Of a stretch of 54,893 nt of DNA, positions 7,303-10,207 are shown piece by piece. A program made the position numbers and the translations under genes. Origin of the DNA: an uncultured Geobacteraceae bacterium (GTDB lineage Bacteria > Desulfobacterota > Desulfuromonadia > Geobacterales > Pseudopelobacteraceae); contig CAIQWT010000040.1 of assembly GCA_903875605.1 (NCBI GenBank), forward strand, positions 1 through 54,893, read 5' to 3'. Numbering within the stretch: the stretch's first letter is position 1; every line of letters starts with the position of its first letter. The notes under the pieces were generated by a model, which worked only from the letters and a program-made list of their open reading frames with translations, had not been told where the DNA came from and searched no databases.

Positions 7303-7331
7303 TTGACAATTTCGAGCTGCCCGACTATAAA
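7303..7331 (+). promoter_or_regulatory. Sigma70 promoter of the M-box operon
   Basis: TTGACA (7303-7308) and TATAAA (7326-7331) are separated by exactly 17 bases. Start of transcription is expected near 7338, a few bases before the 5' strand of riboswitch helix P1. Confidence 0.85.
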
Positions 7332-7343
7332 ATATGCAACATA

Positions 7344-7500
7344 TTCCTCGTAGATTGAGGCGTTTGCACAAACAGATGCTACTACCCAGAAACGTCGAAA
7401 GACGCCAATGTGGTTACCAGGTTTTGCCGGATTAAGGCTTAACCCAATGTAGCTGGAATTTTCCTACGTTGTGCTCTGCCGAAAGTCAGCCAGGGGGGAA
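7344..7500 (+). ncRNA. M-box (ykoK) magnesium riboswitch
   Basis: The leader matches the M-box aptamer in order. CGTAGATTGAGGC (around 7349-7361) is followed by GATGCTACTACCC, the hallmark AACGTCGAAAGACGCCAATG (around 7392-7411), ATGTAGCTGGAA and GTGCTC. TTCCTC (7344-7349) can pair with GGGGGAA (about 7494-7500) as the closing helix. M-box RNAs compact when Mg2+ is plentiful and then favour termination. The aptamer sits between a strong promoter and an intrinsic terminator, upstream of an MgtE-domain protein, as expected. The match was made by eye against the remembered B. subtilis mgtE leader. Confidence 0.88.
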
Positions 7501-7521
7501 GCGGTTTGGTTGCAATTTTGT

Positions 7522-7560
7522 AAAGGCCCTTTCTTCCCGAATGGGTCTTTTTTAGTTTTT
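7522..7560 (+). terminator. Intrinsic terminator, expression platform of the M-box
   Basis: AAAGGCCC (7522-7529) pairs with GGGTCTTT (7543-7550) and is followed by a T-rich run broken by one AG. It lies between the aptamer and the start codon at 7575, so Mg2+-bound RNA would stop here. Confidence 0.8.
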
Positions 7561-7574
7561 TAAAGGTTGTATTT

Positions 7575-8837
7575 ATGACAATAGAAATAAATGAAATCTA
7601 TCTGAGCTCCGTTATCGGGCGGGCTGTCATTAACAACAAAGGAGACCAGATCGGCGTCCTGCGTGATCTGATCATGATTCCGGGGGAAGTGTTCCCTGAG
7701 GTCTCACACATAGTAATTAAATCCCGTAAGGGCGTGCAAACTCTCCCCTGGAGTGAGGTATCCCTTTTCACGCATGTGGTAATTTCAACCAATAGCATCA
7801 AACCACACGATTTAGTTGCTTATACTCCTGCTGAGGGAGACATCCTTGTCAAACGAGATCTGCTCGATAAGCAGATCGTTGATGTAGACGGTGCCAAAGT
7901 TGTTCGGGTTAATGACATTAAGCTTGGTAATTTGAATCATAAGTTGTGCATATTTTCTGTAGATATCGGTTTTCGCGGTCTGCTCAGACGCCTGGGATAT
8001 GAGCGTTTTGGAGAGCGTTTTGCCCAGGCAATTAAACGTGATATTCCGCAAAGTGAGATCAGTTGGGAATATGTTCAACCGTTGGAAGCAAATTCATCAA
8101 AACTTGCACTCAATATTGCCCGTGACCAGATGAATGAAATGCATCCTGCCGATCTCGCGGATATCATAGAAAACATCCCAATTAAGAACATCCGCACCGT
8201 ACTTGATTCTATCGATGCGGAAACCACCGGTGAGACACTCTACGAGCTTGAATCTGACATGCGTAACCTCGTCATCAGTCAGCTAAACAATGAACAGATG
8301 ACTGATATTCTGGAGGAGATGGAACCTGACGAGGCTGCAGACGTATTAAGTGACCTGCCGGAACAGAAAGCTCAGGAACTGTTGGATATGATGGATCAGG
8401 AAGATGCTGAAGACATCCAGGAACTGCTTGAACATGAGGAAGATTCAGCAGGTGGCTTAATGAATCCGGACTACTTGAGACTCACATCGGACATAACAGT
8501 CGGGCGGGCGATGGAAATTCTTAAGGGGTGTGCCAATGAGGTTGAAACCATTTTTTATGGTTATGTGGTCACTGCAGACGACCAACTGGAAGGGGTTGTT
8601 TCTCTTAAAGGCTTGATAATGAACCCACCGGAAACACTTATTACCGATATTATGGAAGAAAACATCAAATCAGTACGCATCGACGCCGAACCGGAAGACA
8701 TGCTGGAAACACTCACCAAATACGACCTGATTGCCATCCCGGTTCTTGACTCAGAAGGGAAAATGGCAGGCATTGTCACCGTTGACGATGTACTGGCACA
8801 TTATCTGCCGCAGATCATTAAAATCAAGCGGCGCTAG
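7575..8837 (+). CDS. Soluble PRC-barrel/MgtE-N/CBS-pair protein
   Basis: This 420-residue protein carries the cytoplasmic half of an MgtE Mg2+ channel without its membrane domain. Residues 1-150 contain two PRC-barrel-like segments (GRAVINNKGDQIGVLRDL and DKQIVDVDGAKVVRVNDI). The MgtE N domain follows (about 170-290; MHPADLADIIENIP, MEPDEAADVLSDLP). Two CBS domains run from about 300 to 418 (last one IVTVDDVLAHYLP). The acidic N/CBS region is the Mg2+-sensing part of MgtE. No transmembrane helix follows; the frame ends in IKIKRR. The next gene, 12 bases away, is an NRAMP-like permease that it may gate. Controlled by the M-box upstream. Confidence 0.92.
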   Translation: MTIEINEIYLSSVIGRAVINNKGDQIGVLRDLIMIPGEVFPEVSHIVIKSRKGVQTLPWSEVSLFTHVVISTNSIKPHDLVAYTPAEGDILVKRDLLDKQIVDVDGAKVVRVNDIKLGNLNHKLCIFSVDIGFRGLLRRLGYERFGERFAQAIKRDIPQSEISWEYVQPLEANSSKLALNIARDQMNEMHPADLADIIENIPIKNIRTVLDSIDAETTGETLYELESDMRNLVISQLNNEQMTDILEEMEPDEAADVLSDLPEQKAQELLDMMDQEDAEDIQELLEHEEDSAGGLMNPDYLRLTSDITVGRAMEILKGCANEVETIFYGYVVTADDQLEGVVSLKGLIMNPPETLITDIMEENIKSVRIDAEPEDMLETLTKYDLIAIPVLDSEGKMAGIVTVDDVLAHYLPQIIKIKRR

Positions 8838-8849
8838 AAACCGGGTACT

Positions 8850-10148
8850 ATGTTCAACTATATTTCACAATTTAGATTTCTGAAACCGCTCAAGAGCTTC
8901 AGCCCCCGGAATGTCATGATCTTCCTGGCTATCCTGGGACCGGGTATTATTACAGCCAACGTGGACAATGACGCCGGCGGCATCACCACCTATTCACTGG
9001 CCGCAGCCAACTACGGCTACTCCATTCTCTGGATGATGATACCAACCACTATTGCTCTGGTTGTAGTCCAGGAGATGTGCGCCCGAATGGGAGCAGTCAC
9101 CGGCAAAGGGTTGTCTGATCTGATCCGTGAATCCTTCGGTGTCAAAGTAACATTCTACGTCATGATAGCCCTGTTACTGACCAATATGGGCAACTCCATC
9201 TCCGAGTTTGCCGGAATCGCCGCCAGCCTTGAAATCTTTGGCATCAGCAAATACATCTCTGTGCCAATAAGCGCAATTTTAGTCTGGCTGCTCATCGTAA
9301 AAGGATCGTACAAAGTTGTGGAAAAGGTGTTCCTCGTGGCGTGCCTTGTCTACATCGCTTATCCGATTGCCGCCTTTATGGCTGGCCCTGACTGGACAGT
9401 AGTCATGAAAGCGACTGTTACTCCCACTTTTAAAACCGACAGTGCTTATCTGATGACTCTGATCGGTATCGTCGGCACAACTATAGCCCCATGGATGCAG
9501 TTTTATCAGCAGGCTGCAGTTGTTGAAAAAGGAATAACCGCAGACCAGTACAATTTTTCACGGATAGATGTTATTTTTGGATGTATCATGGCTATTGTAG
9601 TGGCTTTCTTTATGATGGTTGCCTGCGCTTCTACAATACACCTGCATGGTTTAAAGATTGAAACGGCTACAGATGCAGCATTGGCACTTAAACCTTTGGT
9701 TGGCCAACATGCGTCAACTCTATTCGCTTTTGGACTTTTTAACGCTTCGCTGTTTGCCGCCTGCATCCTGCCGCTTTCCACCGCCTACTATATCTGTGAG
9801 GGCATGGGGTGGGAATCAGGAGTGGACAAGGACTTCGAGCAGGCGCCACAATTTTTCTGGCTGTTCACGATTATCATCGCCATTAGTGCCGGACTGATCC
9901 TGATTCCGAATGCTCCATTGATGTCGATTATGTTCATCTCTCAAGTGGTAAACGGTGCGGTGCTTCCTTTTGTGTTGATGTTCATGATCAAACTTATAAA
10001 TGATAAAAACCTGATGGGAACCTATGTCAACGGGCCGGTATTAAACATCATCGCCTGGCTGACCGTTGTTACAATGATAGTATTGACGGTAATTATGACT
10101 ACAGACATAGCGTTTCCGGGATTGATCAAACGGTTAATGAGTTTTTAA
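8850..10148 (+). CDS. NRAMP-family divalent metal transporter, atypical metal site (probable Mg2+ uptake)
   Basis: This 432-residue polytopic inner-membrane protein of the SLC11/NRAMP fold has about 11 membrane segments. Helix 1 reads PGIITANVDNDAGG: by alignment from the surrounding residues, D41-A-G-G44 replaces the usual DPGN, so the ligand Asn is Gly. Helix 6 reads GTTIAPWMQFYQQA: the usual M-P-H is A213-P-W, so the thioether ligand that favours Mn2+/Fe2+ is missing. With the M-box leader and MgtE-domain neighbour, Mg2+ is the most likely substrate. The family assignment is seen; substrate is inference. It is the last gene before a strong terminator. Confidence 0.9.
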   Translation: MFNYISQFRFLKPLKSFSPRNVMIFLAILGPGIITANVDNDAGGITTYSLAAANYGYSILWMMIPTTIALVVVQEMCARMGAVTGKGLSDLIRESFGVKVTFYVMIALLLTNMGNSISEFAGIAASLEIFGISKYISVPISAILVWLLIVKGSYKVVEKVFLVACLVYIAYPIAAFMAGPDWTVVMKATVTPTFKTDSAYLMTLIGIVGTTIAPWMQFYQQAAVVEKGITADQYNFSRIDVIFGCIMAIVVAFFMMVACASTIHLHGLKIETATDAALALKPLVGQHASTLFAFGLFNASLFAACILPLSTAYYICEGMGWESGVDKDFEQAPQFFWLFTIIIAISAGLILIPNAPLMSIMFISQVVNGAVLPFVLMFMIKLINDKNLMGTYVNGPVLNIIAWLTVVTMIVLTVIMTTDIAFPGLIKRLMSF

Positions 10149-10172
10149 ACGACAAGCCATAAACAAACGCAG

Positions 10173-10207
10173 AAATGCCCACTGGAGATATCTAGTGGGC
10201 ATTTTTT
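10173..10207 (+). terminator. Terminator of the magnesium operon
   Basis: AAATGCCCACT (10173-10183) pairs with AGTGGGCATTT (10194-10204), followed by further T. The reverse strand also ends in a short T run, so it could serve the convergent HIT gene too. Confidence 0.88.

Follow-up and report, generated by a model that had tools for sequence, protein, structure and literature searches.

A magnesium riboswitch operon with a predicted detached MgtE-type sensor and an NRAMP-related transporter in an uncultured Geobacteraceae bacterium

M-box riboswitches ahead of genes for the transport of other metals were sought by Shin et al. 2014 (PMC4072509, referred to throughout from the part of its text that was available), and this led to Nramp-related genes, the majority of them in Clostridia and Deltaproteobacteria. 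Two NrmT genes of C. acetobutylicum were reported there to transport Mg2+, most members of the group have a neighbor homologous to the cytoplasmic domain of MgtE, and cytoplasmic feedback by this MgtE-like fragment was put forward as a speculation. The role of the fragment was left open in that study; no later work on it was recognized in the literature searched, where most subscription papers fell outside, and it goes unmentioned in the available portions of PMC9606685, PMC12873925, PMC6711546, and PMC13209247. We describe an operon in a window of 54,893 nucleotides (the whole stretch of DNA analyzed) from an uncultured Geobacteraceae bacterium, in which an M-box precedes a gene for a predicted detached Mg2+ sensor and a gene for an NRAMP-related Mg2+ transporter (NRMT). 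In gene content, riboswitch, and the idea of feedback it resembles the operons of Shin et al. and is a further member of the already described M-box/MgtE-fragment/NrmT kind, although in C. acetobutylicum the fragment is split in two genes and in the window it is a single gene. Newly added are the phylum-wide pairing of sensor and transporter, four arrangements of their genes, an inverse occurrence of MgtE, and the residue pattern of the sensors.

The operon lies on the forward strand and has the following parts.

7303 to 7331, forward strand: sigma-70-type promoter TTGACA-17-TATAAA, read from the sequence, with TTGACA aligned column for column in 9 of 15 leaders
7340 to 7504, forward strand: M-box Mg2+ riboswitch aptamer, RF00380, 125.5 bits, full length
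7493 to 7538, forward strand: proposed antiterminator, from the minimum free energy (MFE) fold and tract pairing in relatives
7522 to 7553, forward strand: intrinsic terminator of the riboswitch expression platform, 8-bp stem AAAGGCCC/GGGTCTTT plus T run
7575 to 8837, forward strand: predicted detached Mg2+ sensor, 420 amino acids, from Pfam and an AlphaFold2 (AF2) model; PRC region about 1-170, MgtE_N 189-290, CBS about 295-409, tail 408-420, assigned from Pfam, alignment to MgtE, and the AF2 model
8850 to 10148, forward strand: NRMT, 432 amino acids, PF01566 at 343 bits, matched to 7qia, DxxG/TxxA site
10171 to 10206, forward strand: operon terminator, 16-pair stem and T-rich tail

A first-pass annotation of this DNA had read a near-consensus promoter, an M-box, an intrinsic leader terminator, a soluble PRC/MgtE-N/CBS protein, an NRAMP-family transporter 12 bases later, and a closing terminator, and each of these parts was recovered here, the aptamer by the Rfam comparison that the annotation had proposed as a check.

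The permease, whose gene begins 12 bases past the stop codon of the sensor gene, belongs by its sequence with the Nramp-related Mg2+ transporters. Its best solved match is EleNRMT (7qia; E 2.2e-121, ungapped over 400 residues), and its model agrees with that structure at a template modelling (TM) score of 0.94 by target length, with 49% identity. EleNRMT is described as an SLC11/NRAMP Mg2+ transporter, and the DxxG/TxxA site is stated for NRMTs, in the available part of PMC8806188. In the window permease D41-A-G-G44 and T210-T-I-A213 represent the DxxG motif of helix 1 and the TxxA/T motif of helix 6, with G44 and T210 aligned to G58 and T224 of EleNRMT, so that the NRAMP fold and PF01566 match are joined to the helix 1 and helix 6 motifs of an NRMT. 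The two proteins share fold, 400-residue alignment, and binding-site signature while being only 49% identical, and Mg2+ is the probable substrate in the window as well. Geobacteraceae metagenome-assembled genomes (MAGs) and Pelotalea chapellei are among the named relatives whose permeases are 90-97% identical, which suggests an environmental, Geobacteraceae-like host.

The host genome (3.58 Mb, 99.25% complete) contains two NRAMPs, the window NRMT and a second one at locus L011, which shares PF01566 but has the canonical IDPGN/MPHN site of MntH-type proteins where the window NRMT has NDAGG/TTIA, and thus provides a within-genome contrast to the site of the window permease. No sensor match was found in the 2.9-kb stretch that contains this second NRAMP, and it has no M-box, that of the window operon being the only one found in a scan of the whole genome. 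The canonical gene starts 5 bases after a gene that by eye resembles a gamma-type carbonic anhydrase (L011, 821-2640). The MgtE pore domain PF01769 had no match anywhere in the host genome, nor was there any P-type ATPase above the MgtA cut-off; there are two CorA genes, and CorA was present in 14 of 14 control genomes.

The first gene of the operon encodes a protein in which Pfam finds PRC, MgtE_N (88.1 bits), and CBS (48.7 bits) domains; Pfam scores a single CBS stretch and the first CBS was assigned by alignment to MgtE, while only a lenient threshold (E up to 1) reveals another PRC stretch, toward the N-terminus. PF01769 is absent from its Pfam matches and hydropathy gives no transmembrane stretch, in agreement with the earlier claim that the sensing part of MgtE stands here without its pore. 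Among solved structures, the cytosolic domains of the Mg2+ channel MgtE (2yvy, 2zy9) come closest to it in sequence. The AF2 model of the sensor alone has a predicted TM (pTM) score of 0.41, which we read as flexible domains. Residues were compared in an alignment of 140 sensor rows (the window included, some genomes represented twice, 10 partial sensors excluded) together with 26 rows of true MgtE (4 of 30 MgtE loci having failed the length filter) and 9 sensors encoded on other contigs, with the Mg2+ sites of Thermus MgtE as reference for numbering (PMC5882242, available part). Every one of the 140 sensor rows has D at the position of MgtE D95, which is D256 in the window sensor, as do all 42 representatives that share less than 70% identity. 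The position of E59 is E or D in 135 rows, and D91 and D247 are D in 102 and 104 respectively; the window sensor is acidic at all five MgtE sites (D95, E59, D91, D247, D226). Net charge over up to 14 residues after L249 averages +2.1 across the 140 sensors (from -3 to +6) and +4.1 in the 9 from other contigs, versus -3.4 in MgtE. Judged by alignment, then, the sensors have largely kept the N-domain and CBS Mg2+ sites, with the plug helix rebuilt as a short, mostly basic tail. The protein has the MgtE_N and CBS regions and the Mg2+ residues of an MgtE-type cytosolic sensor; unlike the MgtE channel it has neither the pore domain nor the acidic plug helix, and it has an additional PRC region. In a clade whose permeases are 34-35% identical (L171-L176) the sensor gene is downstream, and four of its five sensors in the profile alignment (L171, L173-L175; not L172) read LMGR where others read LLDK or a close variant.

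The first-pass annotation had proposed a survey of genomes for detached sensors beside NRAMP genes. In 395 genomes drawn from the host's phylum, the window permease had a match at E 1e-40 or better in 91; G005, G119, and G384, in which the only NRAMPs had a DDPxx-type site (L180, L182, L179), were set aside, leaving 88 NRMT genomes spread over 27 families. The NRMT site was read in 83 of these, and five fragments (G125, G137, G314, G337, G371) were counted by 53-60% identity. Sensors were found with a profile of the PRC region (alignment A1, 39 rows) at E 1e-8 or better, in 89 genomes. Both genes occurred in 87 genomes, NRMT alone in 1, sensor alone in 2, and neither in 305; i.e. the sensor is present in 87/88 NRMT genomes and 2/307 others. 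The Fisher value of 2.5e-84 overstates the evidence for this pairing, because of relatedness among the genomes and because the window and the surveyed genomes themselves supplied 26 of the 39 profile rows. The few exceptions have particular circumstances: the sole NRMT-only genome (G344) has a sensor fragment at a contig end (L043), in one sensor-only genome (G260) an NRMT fragment, most of it recorded as N, adjoins the sensor (L251), and the other (G042) is 67% complete. A sensor match was likewise present at 75 of 80 named loci, the other 5 permeases starting within 200 bases of a contig end. The pairing of sensor and NRMT genes is near-obligate in this phylum.

The pairing occurs in four arrangements of the two genes. 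Among the 88 NRMT genomes the genes are in tandem with the sensor first in 56, in tandem with NRMT first in 6, convergent in 12, and on different contigs in 13, with no sensor in 1. For 5 of the 13 the permease is close to a contig end (G297, G288, G127, G137, G125), and for the other eight (G060, G097, G152, G201, G224, G286, G306, G342) the NRMT neighborhood, read for about 4 kb on each side (in G201 and G286 one side was limited to 0.2 and 2.4 kb, respectively), has no sensor, which is on another contig; in G152 the sensor is split into two pieces, of which one lies at the start of a contig. That the sensor is a passenger kept by co-transcription was rejected, given the 12 convergent genomes and these eight, and the surveys make passenger status in general unlikely. 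Translation through the TAG that separates the genes found no support, as spacing and frame differ among relatives, and no natural sensor-NRMT fusion, i.e. no frame matching both proteins, occurred in 110 loci (L014-L123), among which other phyla are represented only by the named loci; long frames of 486-669 amino acids at L023, L028, L032, and L043 had no sensor match. In clade f58 and G060 (L184-L188, L190-L193) the sensor gene is on a contig other than that of NRMT and is full-length in 8 of 9, L191 being cut; by eye, the gene next to the sensor in L184 and L186 resembles a TRAP-type transporter.

NRMT and MgtE occur inversely. At E 0.001, PF01769 was present in 232/395 genomes, 229 of them over the cut-off, comprising 12/88 of those with NRMT and 220/307 of those without. 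Families f12, f16, f21, f35, f45, and f62 each contain MgtE-only and NRMT-only genera. The surveys point to replacement of MgtE by the pair of sensor and NRMT.

The leader contains the parts of a transcriptional riboswitch. The promoter boxes (TTGACA 7303-7308, TATAAA 7326-7331, spacer 17 bases) come from reading the sequence, as the list from a consensus promoter scan, which requires T at the sixth -10 base, does not include this promoter. The RF00380 match far exceeds the gathering score of 44 (E 8.5e-28, model positions 1-169 of 169). The terminator hairpin AAAGGCCC/GGGTCTTT at 7522-7550 has a loop of 13, is followed by the T run, and is missing from a terminator scan with a loop limit of 8, but in all 15 aligned leaders a custom script found a terminator-like hairpin, its stem being altered in L051 and L071. 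The 5′ arm of the terminator is occupied in the MFE fold, where 7503-7514 pairs with 7519-7528 and the purine tract 7493-7501 with 7530-7538. Tract pairing of at least 8 bases was found in 14/15 leaders (6 bases in L052), and in three of the 14 (L051, L066, L079) the best pairing is to a T run. An expression platform with terminator and antiterminator tract is thus present as for an M-box leader. The MFE energy is no better than that of shuffled sequences (z -0.86), so the evidence for a riboswitch is the Rfam match together with conservation. The M-box keeps its leading position in L121 and L122, where NRMT is the first gene.

M-box RNAs of other species are known to compact when Mg2+ rises and thereby to stop transcription. 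We consider it probable that the locus is a magnesium-uptake operon whose sensor acts as a separate subunit to throttle NRMT at high Mg2+. When Mg2+ in the cell is low, the leader's purine tract would be free to block the terminator, so that sensor and permease would be transcribed, and NRMT would import Mg2+; at high Mg2+ the aptamer would compact, the tract would be hidden, and transcription would end. The sensor most likely binds Mg2+ at the retained acidic sites of its N-domain and CBS region and then, as a separate subunit, throttles NRMT when cell Mg2+ is high. Of the two levels of uptake control proposed in the first-pass annotation, the M-box, the detached MgtE-type sensor, and the carrier with an NRMT site all bear the proposal out, while action of the sensor on the permease is its conjectural part. 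Such action is plausible and has already been printed as speculation for this published system. If the sensor does control NRMT, one Mg2+-sensing module would regulate a channel and a LeuT-fold carrier alike. Only tentatively do we extend this to the sensor being an obligate, trans-acting, Mg2+-responsive subunit of a secondary carrier, a channel gate put to new use on a transporter of unrelated fold, with its basic tail meeting the cytosolic face of NRMT, in a pair that has repeatedly replaced MgtE and persists even where the genes are apart.

Several observations weigh against the reading as an uptake operon with a throttling sensor. First is that the plug residues E258 and D259 of MgtE, present in 25/26 and 26/26 true MgtE rows, are lost: position 258 is K or R in 111/140 sensor rows, a gap in 16, and E in none, and position 259 is a gap in 39 and D in none. 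With a short, mostly basic tail in place of the acidic plug helix, the plug mechanism of MgtE cannot apply unchanged and coupling to NRMT must differ from that in MgtE. The position of D226, a residue of Mg5, is moreover D in only 37/140 sensor rows and N in 40. Secondly, an M-box was present in just 35 of 70 scanned loci, 10 of the 80 named loci being left out of the scan and some misses lying at contig ends; there was none in the nine scanned Desulfovibrionales-named loci or in three Omnitrophota-named loci, and 3 of 14 survey loci with short flanks had one. The sensor profile was built from sensors near NRMTs, so that a divergent sensor elsewhere could escape it. In the available part of PMC4072509, the C. 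acetobutylicum transporters were functional in B. subtilis without the fragment, co-expression of the A. capsulatum fragment gave no better rescue, and the A. capsulatum transporter was judged a likely manganese carrier. Finally, the prediction of the complex that had been proposed as a check gave no confident docking of sensor and permease: the read-through fused AF2 model (83-row alignment) had a predicted local distance difference test (pLDDT) score of 81.4 and a pTM of 0.64. Covariation over 139 sensor-permease pairs (effective number 54) was no more favorable. The strongest block joined the sensor tail (400-420) to NRMT 316-345, and 30 of the top 100 covarying pairs were in cytosolic-side and 9 in periplasmic columns (81 and 69 columns, assigned from model helices). 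In controls of 12 shuffles per cut, shuffling within 55 and 20 clusters retained this excess (32.5/7.8 and 26.5/10.3), shuffling within 13 clusters or a single one abolished it (16.8/17.9 and 24.3/28.4), and the tail-loop block stood at 5.06, 5.09, and 4.71 in the within-cluster shuffles, and only the full shuffle lowered it, to 3.07. Because covariation survives shuffling within clades, ancestry alone may explain it, and it was rejected as evidence of contact.

Alternatively, the sensor could activate NRMT, assist its assembly, or stabilize it, being required for full activity or membrane insertion, with Mg2+ sites that are structural. Near-obligate co-occurrence, even across contigs, would suit a brake and a required subunit equally, and a tail of positive mean charge, opposite to that of MgtE, could bind the membrane surface. 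We regard this as unlikely, since the C. acetobutylicum transporters work in B. subtilis without the fragment (PMC4072509, as above) and since the MgtE_N/CBS unit, where studied, is part of a Mg2+-driven gate according to the available part of PMC5882242. A brake on NRMT competes further with the idea that the target of the sensor is something else, such as CorA, a signalling pathway, or nucleic acid, and that shared control is the reason it stays with NRMT. The basic tail, the sensor genes of clade f58 away from NRMT, and the two CorA genes of the window's genome are consistent with this, but a sensor without NRMT occurs in only 2 of 89 sensor genomes, one N-masked at the adjoining NRMT and the other 67% complete, making another target quite improbable. 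Equally doubtful is a permease carrying mainly Mn2+ or Fe2+, as suggested by the A. capsulatum NrmT, which with its fragment adjoining rescued a Mn2+ transport defect fully and Mg2+-poor growth only partly (PMC4072509, as above), given the M-box control and DxxG/TxxA site of the window copy, its identity and structural agreement with EleNRMT, a described Mg2+ transporter, the inverse occurrence with MgtE, and the separate canonical NRAMP in the genome.

Some further features of the related loci were seen. An Rfam scan found no tmRNA in the window at the gathering score, and at nine loci of relatives (L055, L066, L069, L072, L075, L077, L079, L082, L093) a tmRNA gene is encoded upstream of the operon, on the opposite strand and at a distance of about 0.6-1.6 kb. 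Five MAGs have two NRMT copies with sensors (L049/L061, L062/L064, L054/L070, L090/L091, L096/L113), possibly reflecting mixed bins, and in two of them (L054/L070 and L096/L113) the M-box was found at one copy only.

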